From: Burkholderiales bacterium
Lineage (GTDB): Bacteria > Pseudomonadota > Gammaproteobacteria > Burkholderiales > Burkholderiaceae_C
Direction: 5' to 3'
Assembly: GCA_029268225.1 (NCBI GenBank)
Contig: JAJUGJ010000003.1
Span: 62,001 to 126,000, forward strand
Length of the DNA stretch: 64,000 nt
Below are positions 40,385 to 63,435 of this stretch, piece after piece. A program made the translations under genes and the position numbers. The notes beneath the pieces were generated by a model, which saw nothing but the letters and a program-made list of their open reading frames with translations, made no database searches and was not told the DNA's origin. Each line of letters opens with the position of its first letter. Position 1 is the stretch's first letter.

Positions 40385-42250
40385 TCACGGGGCAGCGTCA
40401 TCCGGCAAGCGTTGCAGAGCGTAGCCTGTGACGCTGACCGCATTGTTCGCGTTCACCCAGACGCGGACCTCCAACTCATTGACGTCCCGATCGAGGTGAA
40501 CGACCGCATCCCGAACCAACTCACCGTTGGCGTTGGGCCGCAGGTCAAACTTCGCATGAATCTGGCGACCGGTGCGTGAAGCCAAGTCCACATAAGCACC
40601 CTCGGTGAACCGCGAGGTGCCATTCACCACCAGCTGATAGCGACCCGCATGCAAGAAGCGATACGGGCCGTACAACAGGAAGCCACGACGCCCATCTGTG
40701 GTTCGGGCTCCCTCGCTGGTGGTGCCCACTGCCGAGGGCAGCCGCAGCAAATCCTCGTCCATGATCCTCAAGCCAGGTTGATACCGGTTTAGCCTCAACA
40801 CCTGCACGTTGTCACTCAAGCGCTGCACGCCGGCCGCCTTGAACTGGCCCACCGAGCGTGCAATCTGTTGCTGGCAGGTGTCGGCCGTTTCGTTCAGGCA
40901 GTAAACATCCACATGCCCGTGCTGCTGGATGTGTTGCGTCATGTAGGCCAGGGCCGCGTCCCGGTTGGCTTCACCACGGAAAGCCAGCCCGTAGGCCTCT
41001 TGCTGATGCAGCATGTCGCGCAGCACCGATGGCCACACCACCCAATAGTCGCCTGCATACAGGTGACCACCCGGGCGTGTCTGGGTATTCACCCGCTGGA
41101 AAACCTTGTATTGCTCGACTGGGAGGGGCGTCGTCCATGTCGCGACGGCGGCGACCAGTGCCGCAACCACAGCCGCCAGCTTGCCCAGCGCCGGCTTGAG
41201 CAGGCACAGCGCGTGCGTGACGAACAGCGTCCCCAACAACAGCAAGGCAAAAATCACATAGGTGAAGTAGCGCCATGAAAACTGATTGATGGCCACCCAT
41301 CCACTGCTTGCAAAAAGCACAAACCATCCCGCTGAGAACACCAGCGCGCCAGCGACGATGTAGCGAGTGGCACGTCCGCACTTAGGCGCCGAGGGGCTGG
41401 CACCTGAGCGGGCCAGCAGCCACGCACCGAAGACACAGCCTGCGAAGACCAGCGACGCGGTCCCGCGCAGGGTTTCCAGCAGACCCAGTCCCACGCGCCG
41501 TGCACCCGTCGGCAAAAGAGACAGGTCGAAATGGCCGTACGAGGCGTCGCCGAACTGGCGTGAAATCAGCGTCCACGACACGAAGGCCAAAATGGCCAGC
41601 CCGCCCCAGGCAAGCTCCGCGGGCGCAGGTCGACGCCGGTACAGCGTCAATACCATGACCGCGAAGACGGCAGGTATCACCGTTGACGGATTCATCCCCA
41701 TCGCGACGGTCAACGTGAGCGCCGGCAGCACCCATGACCACCAGCGCGCAGACCGTCGGTTCACCACCAGATACAGGGACAACCCACCCAGCAGCGCGGC
41801 CAAGGCGTATTCGATGTGTCCGATCGCGATCTCCCCGATCGCGCGAGGCGTGAGCATCAGGACGAACGCCGACGACATCACCATCAACGCCTGGAGTGCC
41901 GTCGCATTCACATCCGTGGCCTTCAACACCTTGGCGGCAAAGTGCGAAAACAGGTACAGCAAGGAGAAGCAGGACAAGGCTGTCAGCCACAGGACCGCGA
42001 ACAAGTTCGCAGCAGGATCCCGCAGCCACGTGGTGGCCCAGGGCAGCACATTGAGCAGCCGGTTTTGTCCCCAGTAATACAAGGTCAGCTTCTGTAGCGA
42101 CATGACCGTGTTGATCAGGATGTCGGCGTTGAGCGCCGTTGGCCCGAACTTCCAGACGGTCATGGTCGACATGACGCACAGCCAGATGCAGGCCAACCCC
42201 AGGGACAGGCGCGTCCCAGCCTTCTTCATTGTCCCGACCTGCGCACTCAT
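40385..42250 (-). CDS. Polytopic membrane protein, GT-C-like (candidate lipid-linked sugar transferase)
   Basis: A 621-residue protein, start at ATG 42250 overlapping the previous stop by four bases. It has about ten to twelve hydrophobic helices (about 10-400) and a 200-residue extracytoplasmic C-terminus with two cysteines (YCLNETADTCQ) and a beta-rich end. I do not recognise it by family. Its position last in a GtrB-GtrA set is where a strain-specific glycosyltransferase sits in gtr operons, using undecaprenyl-phosphate-sugar in the periplasm. That is an inference from context; the topology fits. Confidence 0.7.
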   Translation of the reverse strand: MSAQVGTMKKAGTRLSLGLACIWLCVMSTMTVWKFGPTALNADILINTVMSLQKLTLYYWGQNRLLNVLPWATTWLRDPAANLFAVLWLTALSCFSLLYLFSHFAAKVLKATDVNATALQALMVMSSAFVLMLTPRAIGEIAIGHIEYALAALLGGLSLYLVVNRRSARWWSWVLPALTLTVAMGMNPSTVIPAVFAVMVLTLYRRRPAPAELAWGGLAILAFVSWTLISRQFGDASYGHFDLSLLPTGARRVGLGLLETLRGTASLVFAGCVFGAWLLARSGASPSAPKCGRATRYIVAGALVFSAGWFVLFASSGWVAINQFSWRYFTYVIFALLLLGTLFVTHALCLLKPALGKLAAVVAALVAAVATWTTPLPVEQYKVFQRVNTQTRPGGHLYAGDYWVVWPSVLRDMLHQQEAYGLAFRGEANRDAALAYMTQHIQQHGHVDVYCLNETADTCQQQIARSVGQFKAAGVQRLSDNVQVLRLNRYQPGLRIMDEDLLRLPSAVGTTSEGARTTDGRRGFLLYGPYRFLHAGRYQLVVNGTSRFTEGAYVDLASRTGRQIHAKFDLRPNANGELVRDAVVHLDRDVNELEVRVWVNANNAVSVTGYALQRLPDDAAP

Positions 42251-42846
42251 GATCCACATGTGTAGCTGGGTGCCGGGCCGCTGGCGCGGAATGGGTCCGT
42301 CAGGTCGTCGTTGTACTGCCCCATCAGCAGGCGCTGCTTGGGAAGCCAGTGCAATCTGAAATAGCGGCTGAAGGTTGCCAAGTCGCGCCCCTTGGGGGTC
42401 AGCAGGACACAACCGTTCCGAATGACGATGGTGCCCGACGCCAACTGTTCCGTGAGTCGCACATCCACCAGTCGATGCTCCTTCATGTACTCCTGTGTGA
42501 AGACCGCCTCAAACGCCGCCTGCTGGATGCCACCACCACGCTGCTGCAGCTTTTCCAGAATGTAGAAAGACAGCGACCGGTCGATCACCGTGGGCACCGA
42601 AATGGCAAAGGCATAGCCACCCAGCAGCCAGATCAAGACGAGCTGCGCCTTCTCGAACCCTCCCAATGCCCGAAAGTACCGCATCCCGAACAACACCGCG
42701 CCGGCCACCCCGGCGGCCAGCACGGCGTCCAGGATGGCCGAGTAAAAGACGACATTGACCTTGAAGTAGGTGATGTGCGCGTGATAGACCGCCAACAAGA
42801 CGGCTACGAAGAACAAGCTTGCAGTCAATGCGCGAATAAATTTCAT
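42247..42846 (-). CDS. Small membrane protein with possible cytoplasmic winged-helix-like domain
   Basis: A 199-residue protein, start at ATG 42846 overlapping gtrA by four bases. Three or so hydrophobic segments lie near residues 5-20, 30-55 and 65-90. The remaining ~100 residues are soluble and look like a helix-turn-helix/wing arrangement around LEKLQQRGGGIQQAAFEAVF and GTIVIRNGCVLLTPKGRDLA. No family recognised. It is conserved in its position between GtrA and the GT-C-like protein, with four-base overlaps on both sides. Confidence 0.6.
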   Translation of the reverse strand: MKFIRALTASLFFVAVLLAVYHAHITYFKVNVVFYSAILDAVLAAGVAGAVLFGMRYFRALGGFEKAQLVLIWLLGGYAFAISVPTVIDRSLSFYILEKLQQRGGGIQQAAFEAVFTQEYMKEHRLVDVRLTEQLASGTIVIRNGCVLLTPKGRDLATFSRYFRLHWLPKQRLLMGQYNDDLTDPFRASGPAPSYTCGS

Positions 42847-43229
42847 GATTTGAAGATCAGGAACTTGTTGCCCACATAACTCAGGGCCATCTGCATGGCC
42901 GTGACGATCACAAAACCGGCCCGATAGTCCAGCCCATGGCGGTCGGTCCATAGCCACAAACACAGGCCATGCAAAGCGGCCGTGGCCCCGTACAACAAGC
43001 CGAAGCCGAGTGCCTGGCGGTGGAAACTGCCCACGGTGTGCTGGAACACGAAATAGCGGCTCCCCAAGAAAGAGGCCGAGATGCCAAACAGCGCCGCCAC
43101 CGCATTGGCCATGCCTGCGGACCGAAAGCCGAAGACCTCGATGTTCAGCATGAGCACGCCATAGTGCACGGCGGTGGCCAGCACGCCATTGAGGACGTAC
43201 CTGAAAACCTCGTGCGCCCGGGCACTCAT
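42843..43229 (-). CDS. gtrA: GtrA family flippase-like membrane protein
   Basis: A 128-residue protein with four hydrophobic helices and the GtrA/DPMS-like pattern FRYVLNGVLATAVHYGVLML near the N-terminus. GtrA proteins are thought to move undecaprenyl-phosphate-sugar across the inner membrane. It overlaps GtrB and the next gene by four bases each. Confidence 0.9.
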   Translation of the reverse strand: MSARAHEVFRYVLNGVLATAVHYGVLMLNIEVFGFRSAGMANAVAALFGISASFLGSRYFVFQHTVGSFHRQALGFGLLYGATAALHGLCLWLWTDRHGLDYRAGFVIVTAMQMALSYVGNKFLIFKS

Positions 43230-44191
43230 GGCGATGTCGTGGGCAACGCCGTGCTCACCACTTCATCAATGAAGTCCTGATGCGCGACGGCGGTCGTGAC
43301 CGTGCCGCCTCGCATCACGCCGGTCAGCATCAGCGTCATCAGCGCGAGGGCGCCGGTTTGCAGGAGCATCAGCACCAAAATGCCCAGTGCGATCGAAAAC
43401 CATCCGGGGGTCGAAAAGCCGATCAGCTTCAAGACGATGGCGGCCGAGATACCCAAGATGGACAGGGCTGCGATGCCTGCGCAAGCCAGCCCCACACGCA
43501 CCAGCACGTCCTCGGCAAACACCATCAGCCCCTTGAAACCGTGCAAGGCCAGGCCCACGAAATTCATCTTGGACTTGCCCGCGTAGCGGGGCCCACGGTC
43601 CAGAGGACACACACCTGTTCGCAGCTTGGACGCCAGCACCGCTCCCGCCACATGAATGGGCAACTCCTGCATGGCCACCAGGCGTTTGACAGCCCCTGGC
43701 TTGAGCGCCATGAAGTTGCCAAAGCTGATCGCGCGGCCGGTCATCAACCGGAAGAAGCGCTTGTAGACCATGTAGAACGCCTTGAATCGCCATGTCTCCA
43801 CCCGACGCTTGCGCTGAGCCACCACCACGTCCAGCGCCGGAGCCTCCAGCATCGCCAGCAGGTCGCGCAGCGTCGAAGGCAGGTCCTCGCCGTCGGAGTC
43901 CATCACCACCACACGCTGCTGCGCATGTAGGCGCTCCGCCACGTAACTCAGGCCAATGGCGATGGCCCGCTGATGGCCGACATTGCGCTTCAATTTGAGC
44001 ACCACACCCTCGACCGGTGCTGCTTTCAGGCTCCCCACGTCGACCGGGTGGTGGACGGAGCCATCGTCCACGGCTACCACGAACACGTCATCGCCCCATT
44101 CGGTCGCCAATTCCTTGAACAGGCGGCTACTCGCCTCCGTGTCCTCATAGATGGGTGTGACCACGATCACACGATGGCGCGGGTTGATCAT
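43226..44191 (-). CDS. gtrB: GtrB-type polyprenyl-phosphate glycosyltransferase (GT2)
   Basis: A 321-residue GT-A enzyme with two C-terminal membrane helices. The nucleotide part starts [14 protein letters not shown], the DXD-like motif is [11 protein letters not shown] (about 95-105), and [14 protein letters not shown] is typical of the family. It makes undecaprenyl-phosphate-sugar from a nucleotide sugar in the cytoplasm. Because a UDP-glucuronate decarboxylase-like gene is directly upstream, the likely donor is UDP-xylose; this is inference. Confidence 0.88.
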
Positions 44192-45141
44192 GACGCGAGC
44201 AAGTTCTTGAAATAGTCGATGGTGCGGGTCAGCCCCTCCTCCAGATGGACCTGGGGGCTCCAGTTCAGTGCCGTCTTGGCCAGGGTGATGTCGGGCTGGC
44301 GCTGTTGGGGGTCGTCCTGGGGCAAGGGCCGCATCACCAGCCTGGAGCGTCCGCCCACCATCCGCAAGATCGTCTCGGCCAACTCCAGAATCGTGAACTC
44401 CCCCGGGTTGCCCATGTTGATGGGGCCTGTCAAGGCTGCCGGGCTGGCCATCATCCGCACGAAACCCTCGACCATGTCGTCCACGTAGCAGAAGCTGCGG
44501 GTCTGTGAGCCATCCCCGTAAATGGTGATGTCCTCGCCACGCAGGGCCTGAACGATGAAATTGCTGACCACCCGACCATCATTGGGGTGCATGCGTGGGC
44601 CATAGGTGTTGAAAATGCGGACCACCTTGACCTCCAGACCATGCTGGCGCCAGTAATCAAAAAACAGCGTTTCCGCGCAACGCTTGCCCTCGTCGTAACA
44701 GGAGCGAATACCGATCGGGTTCACACGTCCCCAGTAGCCCTCGGGTTGGGGGTGGATCTCGGGGTCACCGTATACCTCGCTGGTCGACGCCTGAAAAATG
44801 CGTGCCTTCGTGCGCTTGGCCAGGCCCAGCATGTTGATCGCGCCATGCACGCTGGTCTTGGTGGTTTGAACCGGGTCCCGCTGGTAATGGATCGGAGAGG
44901 CCGGGCAGGCCAGGTTGTAGATCTCGTCCACCTCGACATAGAGCGGGAAGGTCACGTCGTGACGCATCAACTCGAAATGCGGGTTGCCCAGCAGGTGGGC
45001 CACATTGTCCTTGGTGCCGCTGTAAAAATTGTCTACACACAGAACGTCGCAGTCCTGTTGCAGCAAGCGCTCACAGAGGTGTGAGCCCAGGAACCCGGCG
45101 CCGCCTGTGACCAGCACTCGTTTTCGATTGGCGATACGCAA
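44188..45141 (-). CDS. UDP-glucuronic acid decarboxylase (UDP-xylose synthase) family
   Basis: A 317-residue extended SDR. It has the NAD-binding GGAGFLG (13-19), STSEVYGDP (119-127) and the catalytic YxxxK at Tyr149/Lys153. The [11 protein letters not shown] and [20 protein letters not shown]-type signatures (here [11 protein letters not shown] and [14 protein letters not shown]) are characteristic of UXS-type proteins that convert UDP-glucuronate to UDP-xylose. The start is a TTG with AAAGGGG just upstream. A possible internal promoter lies in the 84 bases before it (-35 TTGGAG at 45199-45194, -10 TATGCT at 45177-45172, spacing 16). Confidence 0.9.
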
Positions 45142-45171
45142 GACGGTGCCCCTTTATTAGAAAAAGCGACC

Positions 45172-45199
45172 AGCATATCGCGAGCAGCAGACACTCCAA
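45172..45199 (-). promoter_or_regulatory. Possible internal promoter before the UXS-like gene
   Basis: On the minus strand TTGGAG and TATGCT are separated by 16 bases. This is the only sizeable gap in the ten-gene leftward set, so the last five genes may also be expressed alone. Weak match. Confidence 0.35.
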
Positions 45200-45225
45200 A
45201 GGGCCGGGCCAAGAGTGAGCGTATC

Positions 45226-47838
45226 TCAGCTGATCTGTTGTGAAGTGATCGCACCAAACTTGACGGTGAGGCGGCTGACGAGATTTTGGACGGCCTCTTC
45301 CCAGCTTGACGCTGTGCCACTGACGACGATCAGATCGTCGGTCTCTACAGGTGCTTCGTAAGGGCTGTCGATGCCTGTCATATTGGGAATCAATCCCGCG
45401 CGGGCCTTTTTGTACAAGCCTTTGACGTCGCGGGACTCGCAAACCTCCAAAGGCGTGTTGACGTAGACCTCAATGAAACGATCTGAGCCGATGAGGTCCC
45501 TGGCCATTTGCCGTTCCTTCTTAAACGGTGAAATGAACGCTGTCATCACGATCAGGCCGGCGTCACTCATGAGTTTGGCAACCTCTGCGACGCGCCGAAT
45601 ATTTTCCACTCGGTCCGCATCCGCGAAGCCCAAATCTTTGTTCAGGCCTTGGCGCACGTTATCGCCATCTAGCGTATAGGTGTGATATCCCATTGCGTGC
45701 AGCCGCTGCTCCAGCGCATTTGCAATGGTCGACTTTCCTGACCCTGACAGTCCGGTAAACCACAAGACAAAACCTGGGTGCCCTTGCAAACCCTCCCTGT
45801 CTTCGCGTCGCACACTCAAGGCCTGAGTATGAAGATTGGGGGCTGGAGAAGCGTTCACGCCGCGTTCGCCATCTGTGCTGGCACGCTGCTGGGTGGTGCA
45901 AGCGATGAGTGCTGGCATGAGTTCATGCCACGCCAACACCTGAGACGGGCACCTGCCAGACGCCAGCAGGTCGTGTGACAGTCCGGACTCATTCAGCATC
46001 AGCACCGTGCCGTCACATGCGGGCAGTACGACATCCAACACCTGGCGGAGGACAGCCTCGGGCGCATGATTCGTCTGATCACTGGTTTGGCGAATGTGGC
46101 TACCCGCGATGACCACGATGTCTACCTGTGGCACCGGCAACCCGCTTCGCAAGACACTGTCATCGATAGACAGGATCATCACACCCATGCGCCGTTCAAG
46201 CGTCAACAGCTTGCCTGCGGAGTAGGGCGACTGCGCAAGCGTGGTCAAAGGTTCGCCATCCAGTCTGACCTCTTGCCCGTCGTAGCACCCCACCCCGTCG
46301 TGTACCGCAGTTAACGCGCACTCGATGTCATGAGCGAGGGTGCGTTCGGGCGGGGCGCCGATCACCAGAATCGTTGGCACCCGTCCCCGGTCCTTGATGA
46401 GATCCTTCAAAATCAGGCCGTAGAGATGTGAGCCTGTGACCATGCCCAACTGGGGCTGTGCATTCACCTCGCATATCGCCCCGCCGATCTCTCTCCACGA
46501 GCGGCGAATGTCAGGGATCAGCAGGTCAATCCCTGCGAGGTCCAGATTCAACGTTTGCGCCGCCCTCACTGCAAGACGGGCGTTGTCAGGGTGAACTTCC
46601 TCGAACACCGGGACTGGCATGCCACCTGTGCCCACATTGGCGGTGCGTCGCAAGCGAACAAACGTACCCTTCTGTGGCACGCTCTCTGGTGACAGGCCGG
46701 CTTTGGCGAGCAACTCCCTGGCTTCATCATCCAGCTTCAGGTGTTTCAGCGGGGCGGCAGGGCCATTGCCTCTTCGCGGGTCTGCGTTCAGTGCGTTGAG
46801 CAAGGCTGAGATCGTGCTGACGCCATCGCCCCAGACACCTCCCGGAACCCGCTCGTTGGCCCACAGCAGCTTTCCGTTGAAAACAGTCAATCGGTAGTCT
46901 TTGCCCTCAACATGCTTTTCTACCAAGACATTCGGTGAGAGCTTCTTGGCGATCTCATAGGCCTGCCGCACCTCGATTTCACTGTCTAACCCCGCTGCGA
47001 CCCCTTTACCGCCGTCAAGATCCACCGGCTTGACCACCACGGGGTAACCTATGCGACCGGCAATATGCAGGGCCTCCTCTACAGAGCGGGGCACACCATG
47101 TGGTGGCGTAGGGAGCCCCGCCTGTCGCAGCAGGGCCGATGCCCACTGCTTGTTCCGTGCGATCTTCGTGGATATGTTGGGGGTGGCATCGGTGAACGTG
47201 CTGTCCAACCAGCGCCCTGTTCGCCCGAATCCAAACTGGTACAGATTGCCGCCCAGGCTTTGCACGGGAATGCCGGCGTCGAATGCAGCATGCAAGAAAC
47301 GCGGGGTGTTCGAGCTTGTGGAAGCAAACTTGCGAAGTTGATCGCGAGACACCGTCAGGTGCCGCGGCCAGTCAGTTGACTCATGAGACCTGGTGTCGGA
47401 GAGCGCTTGCTTCAGGCACGACAAAGCCCCCAGCAGCGCATGCTTCGATGCGTCGGCTTTTCCAACCATGGCCGGGACGATCAAATCAATGCTGACTTCG
47501 TCTCCGCCTCCTCCCTGCTGAGCACACACGAACGGCTTCTCGAAGATTGAAAGTTCGGCGCTCTGGAGTGAGTACGTGGCCCAATTCGCCACGAAAGATG
47601 CCGCACGTTCGTAGACGGGGAGGTGTTCAGTGGCTTTGATCGCCAAAGTGAGTTCGGTTGCGACCAAGCACTGCTCTGCAAAGCTCTTCAAAACCGATGC
47701 CAGCAAAGTCGTGCTGTCGTGCGTGTCCTTGATACGTAGCCGGGCAGTGATGCAGGGTTGTTGCCGGCCCCCGTAGTAACCTGCGATCAGCTTGATGGAT
47801 GTCAGTGAGATCAACTCACGAGGCGATTCAATGCTCAC
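45226..47838 (-). CDS. Fusion: cyanophycin-synthetase-like ATP-grasp + degenerate Mur-like domain + APS kinase
   Basis: An 870-residue protein from GTG 47838. Residues 1-160 resemble the N-terminal part of CphA. Residues 222-470 form an ATP-grasp like that of Cph[37 protein letters not shown], then [13 protein letters not shown], keeping the metal-ligand Glu457 and Asn459. Residues 485-645 align to the Mur-ligase-like half of CphA, but where the P-loop TGTNGKTT should be there is IGAPPERT, so that half is probably inactive. Residues 680-870 are an APS kinase: GLSGSGKST (696-704), [15 protein letters not shown] (724-738), [10 protein letters not shown] and IDSPYEAP. Likely products: PAPS for sulfation, plus an amide bond made by the ATP-grasp part. 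No ATP sulfurylase (CysDN) is nearby. I do not know this fusion as a described enzyme. Confidence 0.8.
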
Positions 47839-48577
47839 CTTGTTTCCTCGCTGTAATGGTCATCAGGGACCATCTCATACCAAGACGACCTGACGGTAAC
47901 TTGTCAACGCCAAGCCTCTTTTCTATCGCCTTTTGGATGGTGACATCCGATGTGTTGCGAAGGTCAAAGAGCTTTCGACAAAAGTCCGCCATGCTCACAT
48001 GGTCGTCGAAGCACCAGTGGTAATGAACAGACTCATGGGTGTCGACAGTCCACCCTGCTTCTTCCAGTTCATCCAACGTTCTCTGATCCAGGTAAGTGCC
48101 TCGATGCCCTGTGCTGTTGTGAGCATCCACGAACTGATCCAGAAACGATGCGACATCGGAATGCGCAGCCACGTCTGACAGTGCCAGCATGCCGCCAGGT
48201 TTGGTCACACGCAGGCATTCTGAGAACAGGGCGCGCTTGTCCTCAATGTGGTGGACCCCGGCCAAACTGATGACCACATCAATGGAATGATCATGCCAAG
48301 GCAAAGGCAGGAGTTGCTGATGTGCGAGTGGCGTTGAGGCGCAAACTTCCGCTTGGAAACTGGTGCAGGGTTCGTGACCTGACCAAACCACATGGCCAGG
48401 CAAGTAAGCACGAAGGTAACCACCTCCCGCAGGAACATCTGCGACATGCATGCCCGCACTCAGGTTGGCGCGCTCAACGATTTGCTGAAACTCCGCTGCG
48501 CGAGCCCCTGGGTGTTGGCGCATCGCGAGGTCATAGCTTGAACCGCGAACTTCAAAGAGGTCTTGGTAGCTCTTCAT
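47828..48577 (-). CDS. Class I SAM-dependent methyltransferase
   Basis: A 249-residue methyltransferase: SAM-binding motif I is [16 protein letters not shown], then motif post-I/II around [17 protein letters not shown] and [14 protein letters not shown]. The most likely start is ATG 48577; an upstream TTG at 48613 is also in frame. Its stop overlaps the fusion gene's start by 11 bases. The substrate is unknown; sugar, lipid or the secreted protein are all possible in this setting. Confidence 0.8.
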
Positions 48578-48613
48578 CTGTGGGGGGAGATGGTGCTGGC
48601 CTGAGTGGCCCAA

Positions 48614-51999: not shown

Positions 52000-52032
52000 G
52001 TATTGGGCAAAGTTCTTGTGCGGCGCGCTTTG

Positions 52033-53313: not shown

Positions 53314-53643
53314 AGGAAAACCTCGTATTCATATGGGAGCGTGTCCTTCCGAAGCGGGACACACATGACTCGATCAGTATGGCAGACACACGGTGTTGCG
53401 CATCCTGCTCGCCTGTTGCGCCTGTGCTGCCGGGGAAACGTGGGCACGGGTGGTTAGGTGAAAACACCCATTCCAATCGCCAGTCTTGCGTGGAGCAAAG
53501 CAGGCTCGGGCGAGCGCGCAGGCCGGGTGGATCAATTCAGTATGTTTTCTTTTGCTGCAAACGATCGGTTCATGTATAACGAACAAGCGGTTACACGGGT
53601 CGCATGCAGATTCGTGCGTGTTCAATCTCCCAGGAGGGGTCAT
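53314..53643. promoter_or_regulatory. Divergent control region of the adhesin/secretion locus
   Basis: The 330 bases carry no gene. Read rightwards there is a strong sigma-70 promoter: TTGCTG at 53552-53557 and TATAAC at 53575-53580, spacing exactly 17, followed by a leader of about 57 bases and AGGAGG at 53632-53637. Leftwards I found no clear -35/-10 pair, but GTGTCC (53341-53346) and GGACAC (53357-53362) form an inverted repeat close to the GTG start of the TolC gene, as an operator or hairpin. Several short open frames here are not coding. Confidence 0.7.
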
Positions 53644-56600: not shown

Positions 56601-57129
56601 CGATGTCACCGTCACGGGCGGCGAAGACACCTATGTCGATCTGCGTTTCGGCGATCGCTTCTCCAACAGCATCACTTTGGGCAGTGGTGTCACGGACTTT
56701 GAGGGTAACTTCTCGCTGTCACTGGGCGTCAGTGGCGATGCGGACGATGCTGACGCGACCGAGTGGAGTGCTGCGCTCGATGGCACGCCTGACGTTGCCT
56801 TCCTCGCCGATCACATGATCACGATCGATGGTTTTGCGCAGGGCTTCGGCACCGACAGCATCACCTTCAGCAACCTGTCCATTTCGTCGTATGTGGACGG
56901 CGGTTCGTTTGACACGGTGGACGACTTCCTGACCCAAGCCGATACTGCTCTGGATACGGTTGACTTTTTCTTCGGTGCCGTGGACACCAATGGAGATTTG
57001 ACATTGGATGCAGGGTTCTTGGCCGTGTCGGACGGTGACGGTAATGGTGGCATTTCTTACCTGATCCGCTTTGATGACCTCACGACGTTTAACCAAACCT
57101 ACGTGACCAACGCGCAAATCATCCCCTGA
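53644..57129 (+). CDS. Large repeat protein, probable type I secretion substrate (surface adhesin or coat)
   Basis: A 1161-residue protein with no cysteine and an acidic character; no Sec signal is seen. ATG 53644 has AGGAGG at six bases; longer upstream frames are not supported. Residues 1-105 form a helical/acidic head, 106-155 a Gly/Ala-rich segment with a hydrophobic stretch (GVLAGLAGVGAVALAAG), resembling retention segments of BapA-type adhesins. Residues 230-350 and 570-955 are repeats of about 25 residues with the pattern GDxxVxASG...AxL..G, as in beta-solenoids, separated by a non-repetitive domain at 355-565. Calcium-type loops appear near 1114-1125 (DTNGDLTLD). There are no RTX nonapeptides. 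The C-terminus (ISYLIRFDDLTTFNQTYVTNAQIIP, quoted in part) would hold the secretion signal. Several repeats are Tyr-rich (AYAYAYV). Confidence 0.85.
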   Translation: MATKNTNQIKASPDQLAQQGKSVNAAGQGPVAKNAIALADQAWLDDAQQSWEAQRKLEEDAAAAAQEGDLVVELVDSAQGESAVGDSLIDATYAVAEGERGAAVLLEGSGSGAAGGTAGGSAATSGALFAGNSGVLAGLAGVGAVALAAGSSGGESGPDGLKVISNDLPNGGVAVSADEDLGIPAHYENIRVLSETESGPYGDILVQSVNSYDVAVLDGEDTVIEFSEGFPADITVTSDGEQSNASALIAAQGPVGTIEVSADGVDSEALLSASLDGAVTGDLVVSASASGEDTYAAAYLQLTDGVGGDVTVTTTGDYAGAYANLTLDGQVGGDIIVTSSGLEADTELYVNFNNSPSNNISDGGSDQYDGGNYVSTEFQSNIFYTPEVLSDDAFGTGSQHVFAYQDSIFALLVTGNKSDTFTITGNTGQDSSIAEDVAVLGEYGGFTAIAYRSSAEEPSMNRLFIYQGVPADVTVGAVDGNADNEDFSLSGLADISNFSYVALFSASTDAIGDAELTAFFETYVDDVLKAGGNAVVPVADALNSFYDAETQAALRADVPPLYENFEFELPDASRAELTGSNITVTTDGQYAYAYAYVDTAFGTAGVINVEASGAGSWAEGHLNIDGNISGDINVLVTADAAGESYDAYYAHAGFYAQVSAGVTGDISVKAEGVGGEANLNVWAGGDIVGSITVEASGDVLDIVGGYADYYSANARARVYAEGDITGALSATASGESSDAYLFAYANGALSGDLSVTASGESSDAYLVAYAGDTLDGDVTVTASGAYSAAYVGVNQRAYTSTPVAELTGNTFTVQASGAYSYAYAYVGDDYGTGEGRIFSATGTAGAISVTASGASSDVDMFMTLDGSVSGDIVVLAGGVDSTAQFGEDGGYHGPVEVTGDVNGAISVSATGGADYASATMLVGGNVTGDISLNAVSGGDVALRLSAQSVQDISISTGAGGLSEEVFAQIDVPQYYGESLDIASSVGDVTVTGGEDTYVDLRFGDRFSNSITLGSGVTDFEGNFSLSLGVSGDADDADATEWSAALDGTPDVAFLADHMITIDGFAQGFGTDSITFSNLSISSYVDGGSFDTVDDFLTQADTALDTVDFFFGAVDTNGDLTLDAGFLAVSDGDGNGGISYLIRFDDLTTFNQTYVTNAQIIP
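55834..55941 (+). repeat. Direct DNA repeat in the adhesin gene
   Basis: A 33-base unit at 55834-55866 recurs at 55909-55941 with one difference, encoding ASGESSDAYL twice, 25 codons apart. This fixes the repeat length at 25 residues and suggests recent duplication or recombination. Confidence 0.8.
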
Positions 57130-57168
57130 CACTGATATGCCCTGGTGAACGGGGCATTGGTGCCCTTG

Positions 57169-57198
57169 AAAACCCGTGCTGAAAAGCACGGGTTTTTT
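57169..57198 (+). terminator. Strong terminator after the adhesin gene
   Basis: AACCCGTGCT (57171-57180) pairs with AGCACGGGTT (57185-57194), loop GAAA, followed by a T run; with the neighbouring bases the stem is about 12 pairs. It may lower expression of the downstream modification genes relative to the adhesin. Confidence 0.9.
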
Positions 57199-57250
57199 CA
57201 TTTATGCTGAACGATGCACGGTGGCCATACCGAATGTGGTGCCGCAGACA

Positions 57251-59128
57251 ATGACACGCGCAGCCAAAAAAAATCTCAAGAGGTCGGGCCTGCCCGAGGT
57301 CTCTGACAGGCCGGGAACCGCCTTGTTGGAGCAAGCAAAGGCATTGCTTCAGTCAGGTCAGGTCCAGCAGGCCGCCACATTGCTGTTGCGTCCAGATTGC
57401 AACGTGCCTCGCCCATCTCATGTGCCCTTGCTGTGTCATGTCGCCGTGCGTCTGCGACATGAAGACAGGGCACAGGCCATCGCTTGTGCTGAAGCAGCTC
57501 ATCGGCTCATGCCAGAGTTGGCCCGTCCTCTCTCTGTGATGGCCACACTTTACGAAGACGCCCGGCGTCGGCAGGATGCGATCGCCGCAGCGCAGCGGGC
57601 GCGTCATGCCAAGGCTACGCCTTCTGAGTTGGTGGACATTGGCCGTCAACTGTCCCGCATGGGGGATAACGCCACCGCCTTGCTCGTCGTCAAAGAGGGC
57701 TATGAAAAATCCGGTCAAGCCCTCTCACTGGCGTCATATGCGTTGCGTGTGGCTTTGCAGTGCGCGGATTGGGACTTCGTCGAGCACCTCACTCGCCAGT
57801 TGGCGCAGGCGCATCATCGCGGCGACACGGATTCGGTCGGTGAGACCCCCAGAACACATGCTTTGTGGTGTGGCGATGAGGCGATCAATGTCAAGGTGGC
57901 GGCCGCCTTTGCCCGAAGAGCCTTTCCCGTGCGCGAGCCCATCGCATTGCGCGCGCATCCCTGGGAGGCGGGGCGCAAGCTCCGTGTGGGCTATCTCTCG
58001 TATGACTACCGTGAACACGCCACCTCTTTGCTGGCAATGGGCCTTTTGAGGCATCACGATCGTGATCGCTTTGAGCTTTTCGGCTATTGCACCAGCTTTG
58101 ACGATGGCAGTGCATTGCGCCGCGATATTTTGTCCCGCTTTGACAAGGTCAGAAGCTTTGCCAATGTGAGCGACGAGATGGCAGCGCGTCAGATTTTCGA
58201 AGACCAAGTCGACGTTCTCGTCGATCTGAATGGCTTAACCGAGGGCACTCGCTTGGGTATCTTGGCGTGGCGGCCTGCACCGGTACAGATCAACTACCTT
58301 GGTTTTCCCGGTAGCTCTGGGGGCCGTTTTATCGACTACGTCATTGCAGATGGATACACGGTTCCAACGGGCAGTGAGTCGCTTTATCCCGAAAAAATCA
58401 TTCGCATACCAGACACCTACCAGATCAACGACTACCTGGCTCGTTATCTGCCTCCGCCCCCCAAAGTGCGTCCGGTGGGTTTGCCAGAAGGTGCGCTCAT
58501 ATTGGGTGTGTTCAACAACGTGAACAAGATCAGCCGCGACGTATGGCGGACGTGGATGGGCGTCCTGAAAGCGGTCCCGAACACAGTGTTGTGGATGCTG
58601 GAGCCCGGGGATGTGGCCAAAACCAAAATCGGGGCTGAAACACTGGCGCTGGGTGTAGATCCCTCCCGCATCGTCTATGCGCCCAAGTGCAGGCAGGAGC
58701 AACACCTGGCACGCATGCGACTGTGTGATCTCATGTTGGACCCGTGGCCCTATGGCGGCCACACCACGACCAGCGATGCCCTGTTTGCGGGCGTACCCGT
58801 CGTGGCTCTGGAAGGCAAGAACTTTGCATCCAGGGTCAGCGGCGGACTGTTGAAAGCGGCAGGTCTGGGTGGCTTGGTGCTGCCCACCCCGCGTGATTAT
58901 GTGAATTGCTGTATCGACCTTTTGCGTCGTCCCCAGCAACTGCGAACCATGAAGCAGCATCTGCGTCAGCGGCGCCATCCATTGCCCGTTTTTGATGCCA
59001 TCGGCCGGACCCTCTATCTGGAAGCTGCTTACATCGCGGCACATCAGCGTGCGCTGAAAGGCTTGCCCCCAGACAACTTGCTGGTGAGCCATCGGCGTCA
59101 GCCTCAACAGATGAAAAGCGCCACATGA
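57251..59128 (+). CDS. SPINDLY/OGT-family glycosyltransferase (GT41)
   Basis: A 625-residue protein. Residues about 25-210 look like degenerate TPR helices; the GT41 catalytic part follows: LRVGYLSYDYREHATSLL (His256 in the position of the OGT catalytic-site His), LGFPGSSG (350-357), FNNVNKISRDVWRTW (421-435, conserved Lys426) and YGGHTTTSDALFAGVPV (501-517). Such bacterial enzymes add GlcNAc, fucose or other sugars to Ser/Thr of proteins. The start at ATG 57251 lies after a strong terminator and has only a weak ribosome site; it overlaps the next gene by four bases. The adhesin is the obvious candidate substrate, by context only. Confidence 0.9.
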   Translation: MTRAAKKNLKRSGLPEVSDRPGTALLEQAKALLQSGQVQQAATLLLRPDCNVPRPSHVPLLCHVAVRLRHEDRAQAIACAEAAHRLMPELARPLSVMATLYEDARRRQDAIAAAQRARHAKATPSELVDIGRQLSRMGDNATALLVVKEGYEKSGQALSLASYALRVALQCADWDFVEHLTRQLAQAHHRGDTDSVGETPRTHALWCGDEAINVKVAAAFARRAFPVREPIALRAHPWEAGRKLRVGYLSYDYREHATSLLAMGLLRHHDRDRFELFGYCTSFDDGSALRRDILSRFDKVRSFANVSDEMAARQIFEDQVDVLVDLNGLTEGTRLGILAWRPAPVQINYLGFPGSSGGRFIDYVIADGYTVPTGSESLYPEKIIRIPDTYQINDYLARYLPPPPKVRPVGLPEGALILGVFNNVNKISRDVWRTWMGVLKAVPNTVLWMLEPGDVAKTKIGAETLALGVDPSRIVYAPKCRQEQHLARMRLCDLMLDPWPYGGHTTTSDALFAGVPVVALEGKNFASRVSGGLLKAAGLGGLVLPTPRDYVNCCIDLLRRPQQLRTMKQHLRQRRHPLPVFDAIGRTLYLEAAYIAAHQRALKGLPPDNLLVSHRRQPQQMKSAT

Positions 59129-60522
59129 GCCACTCTCACGCTGTCAAAGAGCAAACATCCACTCCAACGTGGCGGGTTGCCGTGATCACACCCTATTGGC
59201 GGGAGGCACCGGATGTGTTGGCAAAATGCATGGCGTCGGTGCGCGAGCAGACCCATCGGGTGACACACATTCTGGTCTCGGACGGGGTGCCGGCCCAACT
59301 CCCCGAGCGTCCTGATCTGATCCATGTTCAGCTGCCATACAACATCGGCAACAGCGGTGGAACGCCACGTGGCCTGGGAGCACAACTGGCATTCAATTTG
59401 GGATTCGACGCGGTTGCCTTTCTGGATGCTGACAACTGGTATGAGCCCGATCATATTGAGCGCGCGGTGAAGGCGCTTCAGCAGGAAGATGTTGACGTGG
59501 TCTTTGCGCGTCGCCGCATGGTCTTTCCAGACGGCGAAGTGATGACCGTTGCAGATGCCTCTGACGAATCTGGGCGGCATGTAGACACCAACTGCTATGT
59601 GATGAGCAAGCGTGCGGCCTTCTTGCTGTCCGTATGGCTGATGTGGCCACAGGACTTCGGCATCGGCGAGGACAGGATGATGCTGGTGCTGATCAACAAG
59701 ATGAGGCTGCGTACCACTCGGTTGAATGTGCCCACGGTCTGGTACCAGACGAACTGGCCACTGCACTATCGACTGCAAGGAAAGGCCCCCGTTGCTCCGC
59801 TGAGGGCACCGAAGCGCAGTGTGCACACGCACTTCAACGAGGGCATCTTTCACCAAATGACCGGCTTGTCTGCACCGCCAGTGGCATCAGACCCGTCACA
59901 AGCTCGTCAGGATCCGCCGAAGATCGGACTGGTCATCGTGGACTGGCGTAGGCGCACTCCCAGAGGGGAGCGGATGACGCCGATGTCTGACTTGGACCTC
60001 ATCGTCATGCCAGACGACGTGCCCCATCCATGCGAGGTGCTCGACGCTGCCGGTGTGCATGCCTTGAAGTTGCCCCGGCACCGGGGCTATTCCGGCACTG
60101 CCGCGGGATTTGGTGCTGCGCTGGCTTTCATGAAAGGATGCGATCGCGTGGTGGTCATACACACGGATTGGAGCCTGGTTGGCGAAGCCATGCGCACGCG
60201 CTATGAGCACCTCAAGGGTCTGGATGTGCCTTTCCATGGCGAGTCATTTGAGTTGCCCAATGGCGAGACAGGGTATGCCATGGTGTACGACCGCGAGCAC
60301 GCTTACTTGAGCCTCCTGGCCGCACAACTCCCCATGACCTTGGATGTCGAGGCGCGCTTCCAATGGGTGAAGGCTTTGGGTGTGTGGCGAACGTTGGAGC
60401 GGCAACAAGGAAAGCCACCTGCACTGCCTCAGCCAGTCACTCGTGCACAAGCCGCAGACTTGCTGCATCGCACCGGGCTGCAACTGCTTGCGCGCCCTCG
60501 CATGAGTTCTGCGGCTGCATGA
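59125..60522 (+). CDS. GT2-like glycosyltransferase with a second, degenerate GT-A-like module
   Basis: A 465-residue protein. The first module (about 15-230) is a GT2-type GT-A fold with VAVITPYWREAPDVL, VSDG and the metal motif LDADNWYEPDH (Asp101-Asp103). A second module (about 265-400) repeats the pattern: the stretch starting LPYNIGNSGGTPRGLGAQ at residue 70 matches LPRHRGYSGTAAGFGAA at residue 316, but the DXD becomes HTDW, so the second copy may bind but not catalyse. It overlaps the OGT gene (four bases) and probably builds on a sugar added by it. Confidence 0.78.
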   Translation: MSHSHAVKEQTSTPTWRVAVITPYWREAPDVLAKCMASVREQTHRVTHILVSDGVPAQLPERPDLIHVQLPYNIGNSGGTPRGLGAQLAFNLGFDAVAFLDADNWYEPDHIERAVKALQQEDVDVVFARRRMVFPDGEVMTVADASDESGRHVDTNCYVMSKRAAFLLSVWLMWPQDFGIGEDRMMLVLINKMRLRTTRLNVPTVWYQTNWPLHYRLQGKAPVAPLRAPKRSVHTHFNEGIFHQMTGLSAPPVASDPSQARQDPPKIGLVIVDWRRRTPRGERMTPMSDLDLIVMPDDVPHPCEVLDAAGVHALKLPRHRGYSGTAAGFGAALAFMKGCDRVVVIHTDWSLVGEAMRTRYEHLKGLDVPFHGESFELPNGETGYAMVYDREHAYLSLLAAQLPMTLDVEARFQWVKALGVWRTLERQQGKPPALPQPVTRAQAADLLHRTGLQLLARPRMSSAAA

Positions 60523-60539
60523 GGAATGGGAGTGACAGC

Positions 60540-61319
60540 ATGATGCGTTTCCCGGCCAACCAGCGACACTGGATTTCCGTGAAGCAATGGGTGCTGGTGT
60601 CATCGATCATGATGAGCACCCAAGCGATCGCGAGTCCGTCACCGCAGGGCGTGACGATCGACAAAATTGCGACAGGGACGGCGTTTTGCGTTGACGCCGA
60701 TGGCATCTTTCTCACCGCCCACCATGTGGTCAAAGGTCGTGATGCCATCGCGTTAGGTCAAAGTGGGGCGGAAAAATTTGTCAAAGCGCAGTTGATGGGC
60801 TTTGACGCTGATCTTGATGTGGCGCTGATCAAGGGCAGTCAGCCATGCAAGCCCTTTGAGATCGCCGACTGGTCAACCGTCCCCATCGGACTCGACGTTG
60901 TTGTGCTGGGATACCCCAGCCCAACCTTCTTGGGCAGGTCGCTGAAAATCACAGGGGGACTCATCAGTGGGTACCGACGCGTCGCCGACACAGTTTTTCA
61001 GTTGAGTGCCGCTGTGCAGAAAGGGAACTCCGGTGGTCCGGTGATCTCTTTGGACGGTTTGCTGGTGGGGTTGGTGCAGAGAAAGCTGGATGCTTTGAAA
61101 ATGGCAGAGCGAAACGGTGATCTGGTGCAGAACGTGAGTTATGCCGTGAACGCCGCCGCGTTATGCCGTTTCCTTGAGGCAAATGGCATGAAATGCAATG
61201 CCAAGCCTTTGGCGCCAAGTGCCGAGAAAAAGGCTCATGCCATCTACGAAGATCATCTGAGTTCCACTTGGATGGTCATGGCCTTTGATGGTCAGCGTGC
61301 TGCTGTGCAAAACCCCTGA
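60540..61319 (+). CDS. Trypsin-like serine protease (S1C-like), exported
   Basis: A 259-residue protein with a signal peptide ending near TQAIASPSP and a chymotrypsin fold: catalytic His62 in LTAHHVV, Asp93 in DADLDVALI, Ser164 in KGNSGGPVIS. No PDZ domain follows. ATG 60540 has GGGAG upstream; an overlapping ATG at 60519 is also in frame. In this locus it may process the adhesin or degrade misfolded copies. Confidence 0.87.
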   Translation: MMRFPANQRHWISVKQWVLVSSIMMSTQAIASPSPQGVTIDKIATGTAFCVDADGIFLTAHHVVKGRDAIALGQSGAEKFVKAQLMGFDADLDVALIKGSQPCKPFEIADWSTVPIGLDVVVLGYPSPTFLGRSLKITGGLISGYRRVADTVFQLSAAVQKGNSGGPVISLDGLLVGLVQRKLDALKMAERNGDLVQNVSYAVNAAALCRFLEANGMKCNAKPLAPSAEKKAHAIYEDHLSSTWMVMAFDGQRAAVQNP

Positions 61320-61339
61320 ATCATTTCATTGAAGGTGCC

Positions 61340-62152
61340 ATGGAAGATATTCTGTCAGTGCTGGTGCCTGTTCAAGGCATTGAGGCCATCAGCTTAGGGG
61401 GGTCACGTGGCTTGGGTGTGGCCAGTGCGAGTTCGGACTACGATGTGGTCGTGCATCGCCGGGATCCGCGCAGCTTTACCAATGCGCATTTGGTATCCGC
61501 TCTCCAGTCCTTGGGTGATTCCTGTCAGATCAAGAAAACGCCCAGTTTGATTTCAGCTTCACTCGGGGGCAAGAGCTACGAGTTCTTTTTGAAGGATTTG
61601 ACATCCATCGAACGTGAGGTGGAGCAGGCGCAGCAAGGTCGCTTCAAGTGGTTCATCAAGCCACTTTTCCCTCATGGAGACCTCAGCACCTCCGCTTTAC
61701 ACCATCTGGTGAATCTGGATTGTTTGTTTGATCGGGCTGGCGCGTTGCAGCGTATTCGCGATAGCGCCCAGCCCGTTTCGCCCAAGTTGCTCAAGGCGCT
61801 GATGCAGTATTTTTTGGTGCAGATGGATGTGACGGTGATCCACGCCTTGAAGATCAAGAAGTACGCCGACTTGCAATACCTGATTGCGCTGTCGTCTCAA
61901 TTCGTCTTTTTCTTTGATATTTTGATGTTTGCTTTGAATGGCAAGTATCCGGTTTTGGAAAAAGGGGGGGCTGCAGTCAGGCGACTCCTTCCTCGTCTTC
62001 CTGTTGGGTACGAAGAACATCTGAGTGCTTTGCAACCTGTCAGTGGCGTCGTCAGTCTTCAGTCTGCGCATGACGCGATGAGAGATCTCAATGCGCTGGT
62101 GAATGACATGGTTAAAAAGAAGCTGCAGGCGCTGGCGGATGCCGGCCACTGA
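61340..62152 (+). CDS. Nucleotidyltransferase-fold protein
   Basis: A 270-residue protein with the pol-beta-like active site: LGGSRGLGVASASSDYDVVVH (Gly20-Gly21-Ser22 and Asp33/Asp35), split here for length. The helical C-terminus includes a hydrophobic stretch. I do not recognise the subfamily or substrate. It sits 20 bases after the protease and 13 before the sulfotransferase, in the same unit. Confidence 0.75.
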   Translation: MEDILSVLVPVQGIEAISLGGSRGLGVASASSDYDVVVHRRDPRSFTNAHLVSALQSLGDSCQIKKTPSLISASLGGKSYEFFLKDLTSIEREVEQAQQGRFKWFIKPLFPHGDLSTSALHHLVNLDCLFDRAGALQRIRDSAQPVSPKLLKALMQYFLVQMDVTVIHALKIKKYADLQYLIALSSQFVFFFDILMFALNGKYPVLEKGGAAVRRLLPRLPVGYEEHLSALQPVSGVVSLQSAHDAMRDLNALVNDMVKKKLQALADAGH

Positions 62153-62165
62153 CCTTGAGGTGTAT

Positions 62166-62999
62166 ATGAAAAAAAGACAAGTGGTGTTGATCGGTGGGGC
62201 GATGCGCAGCGGTACCACCGTTATTCATCGAGCCTTGTGCGCTGGCGAGAATACCAATCCGTATATTTCAGAGAGTTGGTATCTCCTGGATGTGATGCGC
62301 ATTTATAAATGGAACCTGACAAGGTACGATGTCCGGAATGCAGATCAGTTCGGGTCCATTGAAAACTTCAAGGATGTTGTTTTTGACAACTTCCGCAAGT
62401 ACGTGACGCTGGTTTCAGCCAAGTACAACGATCCTGAAGTGATTATGCTCAAGCATCCTGAGCTCACCCGTTTCTTCAATGACATATCGGATTACTTTGA
62501 CGATTGGAAGTTCATCGTCATCGTGCGCGATCCTCGCGATGTGATCGCCTCCATCAAGAGGGTTCAGAAGCGCCATCAAGAAAGTGGCTTGCATACCCCC
62601 CAAACAGAGTTGAGGTCTATATCAGACTTCTGTCTTGAATACTTGTCCTACTACAAAACGGTTGATTTCTCCAAACTGAAAGGCAAGCATATCTTCCTGA
62701 AATACGAGGACTTCGTCATGAACGCAAGCGATCAGCTGACCAAGGTCGCCATGTTCACCGGGGCCAAGTACGACCCTGATAAAGCGCTCAAGTTTTCGGA
62801 CGAGCACCAGAAGGCCGCCAATTTCGACAAAGAGAAAAGGCTAGAGGACAAATTTGCCGGCGCGTTTTGGTCGGACATGTACACGAAAGACATCTCCGAC
62901 GCGAGCATCGGTAGTTACAAAGATGAGCTCACAGAGGGCGAGGTGGCCGAGATACAGCAGCGCATTGGCGACTTCGGTCGGGCGTTTGGATACTGGTGA
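62166..62999 (+). CDS. PAPS-dependent sulfotransferase
   Basis: A 277-residue sulfotransferase: 5'-phosphosulfate loop GGAMRSGTTVI (10-20), 3'-phosphate motif VIVRDPRDVIASIKR (118-132). A longer upstream frame overlaps the previous gene, but TTGAGG at 62155-62160 selects ATG 62166. It would transfer sulfate from PAPS to a hydroxyl group on a sugar or tyrosine. Sampled 60-base lines here have about 40-43 % GC, against about 72 % in the TSUP gene, a sign of transfer. PAPS could come from the APS kinase fusion of the same locus. Confidence 0.9.
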   Translation: MKKRQVVLIGGAMRSGTTVIHRALCAGENTNPYISESWYLLDVMRIYKWNLTRYDVRNADQFGSIENFKDVVFDNFRKYVTLVSAKYNDPEVIMLKHPELTRFFNDISDYFDDWKFIVIVRDPRDVIASIKRVQKRHQESGLHTPQTELRSISDFCLEYLSYYKTVDFSKLKGKHIFLKYEDFVMNASDQLTKVAMFTGAKYDPDKALKFSDEHQKAANFDKEKRLEDKFAGAFWSDMYTKDISDASIGSYKDELTEGEVAEIQQRIGDFGRAFGYW

Positions 63000-63064: not shown

Positions 63065-63435
63065 TGGTGGAGCCGGGGGGAATTGAACCCCCGTCCGTAA
63101 GCCATCATCGAGCAGTTCTACATGTTTAGCTGTCTGATTTGAGTCTCGCCAACCTGATCGCGCAGCAGCACGCTACCAAGCCAGCCAGTCACTTGATCTC
63201 GACCCCAGCTGAGTGACCCAGCTGGAGCCCAGCCTATGTGAATGACCTCTCAGCTATCGTCTTGCGACTCAAGCCCAGCCCATAGGCCAACTGTTGAGAG
63301 GCTCACCGGTATTAAGCGGCGAGTGCGAACTTTTGATCGTTTGCAGTTAGTTTTTTTCCAGTGGATTTACGAGCTGACTGGTGCTCGACATGCCCTGTCC
63401 CGAATCCGCACCCACGTCGAAACCAGGTCGGCCCC
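63065..63435 (-). ncRNA. ssrA: tmRNA (ssrA), tag ANDQKFALAA
   Basis: A 371-nt tmRNA on the minus strand. The 5' end GGGGCCGACCTGGTTTCGAC pairs with the 3' end GGCTCCACCA, and the T arm GGGGGTTCAATTCCCCC is present. The tag frame (63344-63315, then TAA at 63314-63312) encodes ANDQKFALAA. A -10-like TACAAT lies at 63456-63451 upstream. tmRNA rescues stalled ribosomes with SmpB. Confidence 0.96.

Follow-up and report, generated by a model that had tools for sequence, protein, structure and literature searches.

We analyzed a 64,000-nucleotide window from a Burkholderiales bacterium (GenBank assembly GCA_029268225.1), part of contig C3 in a 3.54-Mb draft genome, in which a block of about 22.7 kb brings together the exporter genes of a type I secretion system (T1SS), a repeat protein and enzymes acting on sugars and sulfate. 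All 16 open reading frames (ORFs) of the block were confirmed at their expected coordinates in a listing that covered frames of at least 90 amino acids. The genes form two divergent sets, in which neighbors mostly overlap or are closely spaced. The leftward set encodes, in order, TolC, an ATP-binding cassette (ABC) transporter, HlyD, a methyltransferase, a fusion of a CphA-like ligase with an adenosine 5'-phosphosulfate (APS) kinase, a UDP-xylose synthase (UXS), GtrB, GtrA, and a small and a large membrane protein. The rightward set encodes the repeat protein, a family 41 glycosyltransferase (GT41), a GT2 glycosyltransferase, a Trypsin_2 protease, a possible nucleotidyltransferase and a sulfotransferase. 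An initial annotation had placed a 330-base control region between the two sets, and this layout holds: the repeat-protein ATG at 53644 leaves 330 bases (53314..53643) to the start of the TolC ORF. Nearly all the gene families named in that annotation were borne out by Pfam, NCBIfam or PDB matches, with Pfam supporting GtrA, GT2 (GtrB-like), epimerase, APS kinase with ATP-grasp, methyltransferase, HlyD, ABC, OEP, GT41, a second GT2, Trypsin_2 and Sulfotransfer_3, while its labels "GT-C-like" and "nucleotidyltransferase" proved weakly backed.

The T1SS trio is encoded together on the minus strand. The HlyD-type adaptor (48614..49807) scored 328 bits against TIGR01843, above the cut-off of 209; the ABC exporter (49804..51999), with Walker A and LSGGQ motifs present, fell just short of the LssB model TIGR03375 (678 bits, cut-off 693); and the TolC-type outer-membrane channel (52033..53313) matched Pfam OEP (PF02321, E 3e-50) and scored 149 bits against TIGR01844, for which the cut-off is 225. 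Next to these genes, on the plus strand, lies the repeat protein (53644..57129; 1161 residues), whose start codon is preceded by a strong ribosome site. The protein is acidic and low in Lys and Arg, contains 52 tyrosines, and had no match in Pfam, up to E 0.05, or in NCBIfam; this includes the RTX nonapeptide repeats (Pfam HemolysinCabind), which were not matched up to the same E value. When folded alone by AlphaFold2, residues 565-960 are predicted to form a beta-solenoid (pLDDT 81.9, pTM 0.85) similar to many beta-helical proteins, a fold that would suit an adhesin or a surface layer without proving such a function. That this protein is the substrate of the adjacent LssB-like exporter is a well-supported inference.

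Downstream, on the same strand, the GT41 gene (57176..59128) encodes a soluble, OGT-like glycosyltransferase (Glyco_transf_41, PF13844, 243 bits against a cut-off of 25; OGT-type PDB entries, E 8e-61). The enzyme showed only a weak TPR match (PF07719, E 0.03) and stands far from the N-glycosyltransferases (NGT), with 45 of the 1000 bits required by NCBIfam NF049992 and an E of 4.5e-8 to HMW1C-like PDB entries. The GT2 gene (59125..60522; PF00535, E 4e-12) overlaps it by 4 bases. There follow a trypsin-like serine protease with a signal-like N-terminus and apparent H/D/S motifs (60363..61319; PF13365, E 2e-22), a putative minimal nucleotidyltransferase (61340..62152) with sub-threshold Pfam matches (E 0.02-0.03) and no PDB relative found, and a sulfotransferase dependent on 3'-phosphoadenosine 5'-phosphosulfate (PAPS) (62103..62999; PF13469, E 5e-15). 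Both PAPS motifs of the latter, RSGTT and RDPRDVIAS, are intact, and its best PDB matches, which are weak (E 0.0016), are protein-tyrosine sulfotransferases.

On the minus strand beyond the exporter lie an S-adenosylmethionine methyltransferase (47828..48613; PF08241), the fusion gene (45226..47838; 870 residues in one frame, assigned from Pfam, NCBIfam, PDB and motifs) and a UXS-like UDP-glucuronate decarboxylase (44188..45141; PDB 4gll/2b69, E 2e-124). In the fusion, the CphA-like ATP-grasp half covers approximately residues 1-660 and the APS kinase approximately residues 666-858. Residues 1-660 align with cyanophycin synthetases over the ATP-grasp domain, with its motifs intact, and lack the Mur-ligase P-loop (GxxGK[ST]); the score against the NCBIfam CphA model was 329 bits, where 877 are needed. 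The PDB entry 7ta5, which we take to be CphA2 (it is named Glutathione synthase), scored below the Cyanophycin synthase chains. No listed genome match, with two candidates scored per genome, spans both halves of the fusion, and none of the 569 plasmid records with a match covers 80% of it.

A second version of this grouping was found, through its CphA-like gene, in Candidatus Methylopumilus sp. Ww248, on a contig of 311,091 bases. Its HlyD shares 64-65% identity with that of the window, the highest among the HlyD matches listed besides the window itself. A run on one strand from 184,092 to 171,713 encodes TolC, ABC, HlyD, an acidic protein of 1856 residues (16.9% Asp+Glu, 2.8% Lys+Arg) and a GT41 of 617 residues. 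Next to this run, as far as 149,931, are three CphA-like genes, an APS kinase gene that overlaps one of them, four sulfotransferases (two Stf0, one Sulfotransfer_1 and one Sulfotransfer_4), a GT2 and methyltransferases, one of which was called by reading of the sequence only. The locus also carries an inositol-phosphatase-family protein, perhaps CysQ-like. Exporter, repeat protein, GT41, APS kinase, sulfotransferases, methyltransferases and CphA-like genes together span 34 kb, and the identities to the window are 67% for the APS kinase, 58% for ABC, 48% for GT41, 46% for TolC and 35% for the CphA-like part. The co-occurrence that the initial annotation had proposed to look for in other genomes, of GT41, sulfotransferase and CphA-like/APS kinase genes beside a T1SS exporter, is therefore present in part in this stretch, and the outcome that would have told against it, no such co-occurrence anywhere else, did not arise.

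The two repeat proteins are also related. Their N-termini aligned with a local score of 131, against a shuffle maximum of 85 (none of 1000 shuffles as high), and their repeat regions with 36.2 bits against a shuffle maximum of 29.6 (n=300); among 27 candidate repeat ORFs, the Methylopumilus protein was the best BLAST match for both parts. The kinship is nonetheless a distant one, since phmmer, queried with pieces of the window protein, failed to find the Methylopumilus protein at E 1e-3. In a Comamonadaceae metagenome-assembled genome (MAG), a 1737-residue protein with a weak RTX repeat comes after a related exporter whose HlyD is 63% identical (L242, 6087-16221); no GT41 or CphA-like gene lies within the 19 kb covered. 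The N-terminus of that protein scored 126 against the window repeat protein, near the 131 of Methylopumilus, so the N-terminal part may mark the clade of this exporter.

A third, looser version occurs in Limnohabitans sp. WS1, where a single 17-kb run begins with an acidic protein of at least 1396 residues without a Pfam match and continues with a GT-TPR-Sulfotransfer_3 fusion, a GT2-methyltransferase fusion, a CphA-like gene, a PvcA-like gene (below cut-off), CysD and CysNC. No exporter lies within the part covered, and related HlyD genes are found elsewhere in that genome. Counterparts of the window sulfotransferase, GT2, UXS and protease were not detected in these relatives; for the sulfotransferase this included tblastn against both loci. 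As the window sulfotransferase matched nothing in the compared loci, the resemblance to the Methylopumilus and Limnohabitans enzymes is one of function and not orthology. Judged from gene content, that the genes recur in part in a second bacterial family points to more than an accidental grouping.

The genome that contains the window has three further GT41 frames. At one locus (L012, contig C17, 3123-12934), a 921-residue GT41-GT2 fusion, the GT2 part of which is homologous to the window GT2, has as neighbors a flagellin gene, another flagellin-like gene (recognized by eye) and FliD, with a GT25-type protein next at 12122; this is likely a flagellin glycosylation locus. At another (L011, contig C4, 10482-16672), two GT41 frames adjoin a type IV pilin gene, which makes it a candidate pilin glycosylation locus. 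In a tree built from 51 GT41 rows, the Methylopumilus enzyme and that of the window pair with a support of 100/100 on a long branch. Another clade (100/99) unites three more T1SS-linked rows and a single row for which no T1SS link is known, and the flagellin-linked rows form a clade of their own (100/99). Three further T1SS-labeled rows belong to neither of the two T1SS groups, and one row (L163) received that label for a repeat ORF alone. The T1SS label required 3 changes on the tree, against a mean of 6.2 after shuffling (3 of 500 shuffles as low); clustering of the pilin label was not clear (39 of 500 as low). GT41 lineages thus tend to track the kind of exported protein, which is a correlation. 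Taken with the Methylopumilus locus, these gene neighborhoods make it likely that the repeat protein is both exported and glycosylated.

The block is sharply bounded on its right side. We compared the window and its downstream sequence by dc-megablast with nine stretches from eight congeners. Eight of the stretches carry the right flank, and all of them begin to match at 63024-63065; non-matching DNA continues beyond this point in seven, and the eighth (L177) reaches its contig end there. Position 63065 coincides with the 3' end of a tmRNA gene (63065..63435, minus strand; ARAGORN). On the left, similarity stops at 40365, a border seen in one congener only, in which other genes follow; the left-flank gene was detected (E 1e-150) in only 1 of the 41 other genomes of the genus, and in this sole congener the flank and the tmRNA side are on separate contigs. 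The G+C content of 2-kb blocks from 40001 on is 0.54-0.62, and that of the preceding 18 kb is 0.60-0.68. The repeat protein was not found in 60 other genomes, 36 of them congeners, nor the sulfotransferase in the other 41 genomes of the genus (E 1e-15). Among the Pfam-scanned genes of the block there was no integrase, and the window held no second copy of a 20-base probe drawn from the 3' part of the tmRNA gene, at up to 3 mismatches. From these comparisons the block looks inserted, with an abrupt border at the tmRNA 3' end, and was probably acquired horizontally. On the right flank, ArgJ shares 71-73% identity with several named Comamonadaceae-type genomes, which places the host within Burkholderiales close to Comamonadaceae. 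In two congeners, sequence resembling positions 21-26 kb of the window lies about 11-12 kb past the tmRNA, so the variable region may exceed the block.

With moderate confidence, we favor the reading that this is a probably horizontally acquired locus that exports and decorates a surface protein. The direct evidence consists of the gene content, the right border and the partial recurrence in a second family with non-orthologous sulfotransferases. The acidic beta-solenoid protein would leave the cell through the LssB-like TolC-ABC-HlyD exporter, the best supported of the steps proposed. Before export, the soluble GT41 would O-glycosylate it in the cytoplasm, and the overlapping GT2 would extend the GT41 sugar, with the UDP-xylose of the UXS-like enzyme as one conceivable donor. 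Less surely, the APS-kinase half of the fusion would supply PAPS locally, and the sulfotransferase would sulfate that glycan or the protein itself, possibly on tyrosine. More speculatively, the CphA-like half and the methyltransferase might synthesize an additional amino-acid or peptide group or attach it, and the serine protease may trim or release the repeat protein. The initial annotation had likewise proposed one system that secretes the repeat protein and decorates it or a polymer attached to it; its export and glycosylation part draws support from the Methylopumilus locus and from the GT41 paralogues beside flagellin and pilin genes.

Several observations weigh against this reading. The complete set was seen in the window only. 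In 80 kb of the Methylopumilus contig (121-201 kb), no match was listed for the window GT2, UXS, GtrA, GtrB, protease or nucleotidyltransferase, and no CphA-like/APS-kinase fusion lies near the Methylopumilus GT41. Substrates of LapB/LssB-type systems carry an uncleaved secretion signal at the C-terminus; no T1SS signal family in Pfam or NCBIfam matched that end of the repeat protein, and for that reason export by the adjacent transporter rests on its position and type. This end also had no counterpart in the Methylopumilus protein (its best hit, E 0.14, was to other proteins). Within the order GT41 is widespread, present in 87 of 399 genomes. HlyD was found in 3 of 40 GT41 loci, one of the three hand-picked, and in none of 38 control regions, which is no significant excess (p 0.13), and HlyD or a repeat ORF in 4 of the 40 (p 0.06). 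These 40 loci were taken mainly from the top of the 399-genome result, with some rows passed over and two genomes (G202 and G240) picked by hand; the controls were 20-kb regions taken at set positions across 14 genomes of that order. In none of the 63 CphA-like, 40 GT41 and 19 HlyD loci did the window sulfotransferase have a match (E 1e-5), and besides its own genome it has a relative in only 1 of the 399 genomes of the order (32%), in an O-antigen-like locus. Finally, acidic residues are not enriched around the 52 tyrosines of the repeat protein (1.33 per tyrosine versus 1.46 overall).

These points bear most on sulfation and on the far end of the leftward set. That sulfate is added as part of the system, as the initial annotation had it, is backed by the APS kinase and sulfotransferases of Methylopumilus and by the sulfotransferase, CysD and CysNC of Limnohabitans, and finds no such backing in the window sulfotransferase itself, which went unmatched in the compared loci. 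By these parallels in gene content, sulfation is a probable part of the system. Given the O-antigen-like surroundings of the one other relative of the sulfotransferase, and repeat-protein tyrosines that lack acidic surroundings, a glycan is slightly favored over other targets. At the far end are GtrB (43226..44191, minus strand like the rest of this arm; PF00535, E 5e-10), a GT2 with C-terminal membrane stretches (residues 222-293); the GtrA-like flippase (42843..43229; PF04138, E 8e-18); a small membrane protein (42247..42963) with about three hydrophobic stretches in a hydrophobicity scan and no Pfam match, whose true start is probably inside the annotated ORF; and a putative GT-C-type glycosyltransferase (40385..42412) with eight hydrophobic stretches in a simple scan, no Pfam match and no meaningful PDB match. 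GtrA and GtrB had no match in any of the 63 CphA-like, 40 GT41 and 19 HlyD loci, and for the large membrane protein none was listed among the compared loci. Enzymes of the GtrA, GtrB and GT-C types use polyprenyl-linked sugars at the outer (periplasmic) face of the inner membrane. Proteins exported by type I systems do not enter the periplasm, and we therefore do not assign this arm to the repeat protein. As a protein modifier the arm is unsupported and doubtful; more likely, it modifies a lipid-linked or surface glycan, to which the repeat protein may bind.

The block could, on this evidence, hold two systems: a glycosylated T1SS protein encoded on the right, and a sulfated, xylose-bearing lipopolysaccharide or capsule glycan, independent of the protein, made by the left-hand UXS, GtrB, GtrA and membrane glycosyltransferase with the APS kinase and the sulfotransferase. 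We consider this possible, though less probable than the single locus. It agrees with the absence of GtrA and GtrB from the three sets of loci, with the action of GtrA, GtrB and GT-C families on lipid-linked sugars, and with the setting of the sole other sulfotransferase relative in the order, a polysaccharide-export-like locus that also encodes an APS kinase of its own (identified by BLAST) and a CysQ-like protein (the other names come from reading of the sequences). It sits poorly with the fusion of the APS kinase to the CphA-like ligase inside the exporter gene run, with the place of the sulfotransferase in the gene run of the repeat protein, and with Limnohabitans sp. WS1, where a repeat-like protein, a sulfotransferase and PAPS genes are grouped. 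At L184, 9244-15905, a polysaccharide-export-like locus combines an APS kinase with CysQ-like and sulfotransferase-like genes, and is perhaps a sulfated O-antigen locus.

The CphA-like ligase, to which the initial annotation had given no role, was assessed from its neighbors elsewhere. A search for CphA-like genes in GTDB genomes gave 72 loci, nine of which were matched through the APS kinase alone and set apart, none of them with HlyD or a repeat ORF. The other 63 (mean 16.7 kb) come from several phyla and include some close kin (L020/L021). HlyD or a large acidic ORF low in Lys and Arg was found near 12 of the 63 CphA-like genes and in none of the 38 controls (Fisher p 0.002; this and the following p values are uncorrected), HlyD alone near 7 (p 0.03) and the repeat ORF alone near 8 (p 0.02); thirteen stretches from the genome itself and its congeners held no repeat ORF. 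A methyltransferase of one of two families was near 8 of the 63 (p 0.02) and a sulfotransferase near 4 (p 0.15), and two of these four loci and one of the methyltransferase loci had themselves supplied queries. In Peristeroidobacter, the CphA-like gene lies between a 1904-residue repeat protein (17% Asp+Glu) and TolC-ABC-HlyD, and in a Burkholderiaceae MAG (L040/L186) it comes after a protein read by eye as RTX-type. Relatives of the window methyltransferase are near CphA-like genes in L022 (55%), L028 (46%) and L053 (34%). On these counts the ligase recurs as a neighbor of type I systems, and, as 51 of the 63 loci have neither HlyD nor a T1SS-substrate-like ORF, the family has other uses too.

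Those 51 loci would also fit an explanation that we think unlikely, namely that the CphA-like ligase, the methyltransferase and the APS kinase produce a small sulfated metabolite that has nothing to do with the repeat protein, the genes being carried together by chance or for joint transfer. Some CphA-like loci adjoin P450-like genes or large synthases (by reading), and methyltransferases like that of the window stand beside CphA-like genes in T1SS-free loci, such as L022 and L028. The positions of the CphA-like gene in Peristeroidobacter, in L040/L186 and, in the window, inside the exporter run speak against it. Two other groupings were seen around these ligases. In L015, L018, L026, L045 and others, a protein of 150-186 residues (12 loci) and a P450-like protein (14 loci; by reading of the heme motif) are nearby, in what looks like an undescribed small-molecule cluster; in L051, L052, L055, L076 and L084, from Synechococcus-type genomes and Burkholderiales, the CphA-like gene is followed by phosphodiesterase-like and glycosyltransferase-like proteins (by reading).

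CphA1 grafts arginine onto aspartate side chains. We consider it improbable, though worth stating, that the fusion represents an undescribed class of enzyme that grafts amino acids or short peptides onto acidic T1SS repeat proteins, which together with glycosylation and sulfation would give a triply modified beta-solenoid surface layer. Also improbable is a direct action of the sulfotransferase on tyrosines of the exported protein, as of RaxST on RaxX, with glycosylation as a separate matter: a sulfotransferase with a T1SS and a PAPS supply does recall Rax (PMC6637879), its weak best PDB match (E 0.0016) is to protein-tyrosine sulfotransferases, and 52 tyrosines are available in 1161 residues, but their surroundings are not enriched in acidic residues, the substrate is a large repeat protein and not a 60-residue double-glycine peptide, and the relative of the sulfotransferase belongs to a polysaccharide-like locus.

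Were the locus for export and decoration confirmed, type I export, cytoplasmic glycosylation by GT41 and PAPS-dependent sulfation, so far described apart, would be joined in one transferable unit, and two or three genomes would offer places to examine the combined system. CphA-like ligases are usually annotated as cyanophycin enzymes, and their recurrence as partners of T1SS repeat proteins would change the annotation of a large family. Among the open-licence PMC papers listed, judged by titles and the starts of abstracts and with subscription papers and preprints outside the scope, none describes the combination. Each part belongs to a known kind; as far as we have seen, their combination, the CphA-like/APS-kinase fusion and the association of CphA-like ligases with T1SS are new.

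The closest precedent for joining sulfation to type I export is the raxX-raxSTAB cluster of Xanthomonas, in which a sulfotransferase and type I export share one cluster, PAPS comes from housekeeping enzymes, RaxB processes RaxX, a double-glycine peptide of 60 residues, and raxST homologues elsewhere mostly do not adjoin raxA/raxB (PMC6637879). Rax shows that a single system can unite sulfation and type I export. Compared by description and not by RaxST sequence, both loci group a sulfotransferase, type I export and a supply of PAPS, whereas the window adds a large beta-solenoid protein, GT41, GT2, a CphA-like ligase and a local APS kinase. For cytoplasmic O-glycosylation of an exported protein, the experimentally tested precedent is the Caulobacter enzyme FlmG, a soluble OGT-like enzyme that modifies flagellins in the cytoplasm ahead of their export (PMC7591256). 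The window GT41 resembles FlmG as a soluble OGT-like enzyme, and a GT41-GT2 fusion stands beside flagellin in the same genome; FlmG differs in serving flagellar export, with pseudaminic acid and TPR binding, where the window has type I export, a UXS-like enzyme and a weak TPR match. HMW1C glycosylates its adhesin before secretion. It is reported to be a GT41 enzyme acting on a large secreted adhesin (PMC3012730, PMC3983070). It is an N-glycosyltransferase working with two-partner (type Vb) export, whereas the window enzyme is OGT-like and far from NGT.

CphA1 combines an ATP-grasp domain with an active Mur-ligase domain that has a P-loop, and CphA2 has a single active ATP-grasp site and repolymerizes beta-Asp-Arg. 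The window fusion shares with both the N-terminal region and the ATP-grasp domain with its motifs intact, and departs from them in having no Mur-ligase P-loop and a C-terminal APS kinase. With LapB/LssB-type T1SS the locus has in common the ABC, HlyD and TolC components and a large acidic repeat protein; it differs in that its substrate has no recognized RTX or LapA domain and in that the modifying enzymes are encoded in the same gene runs.

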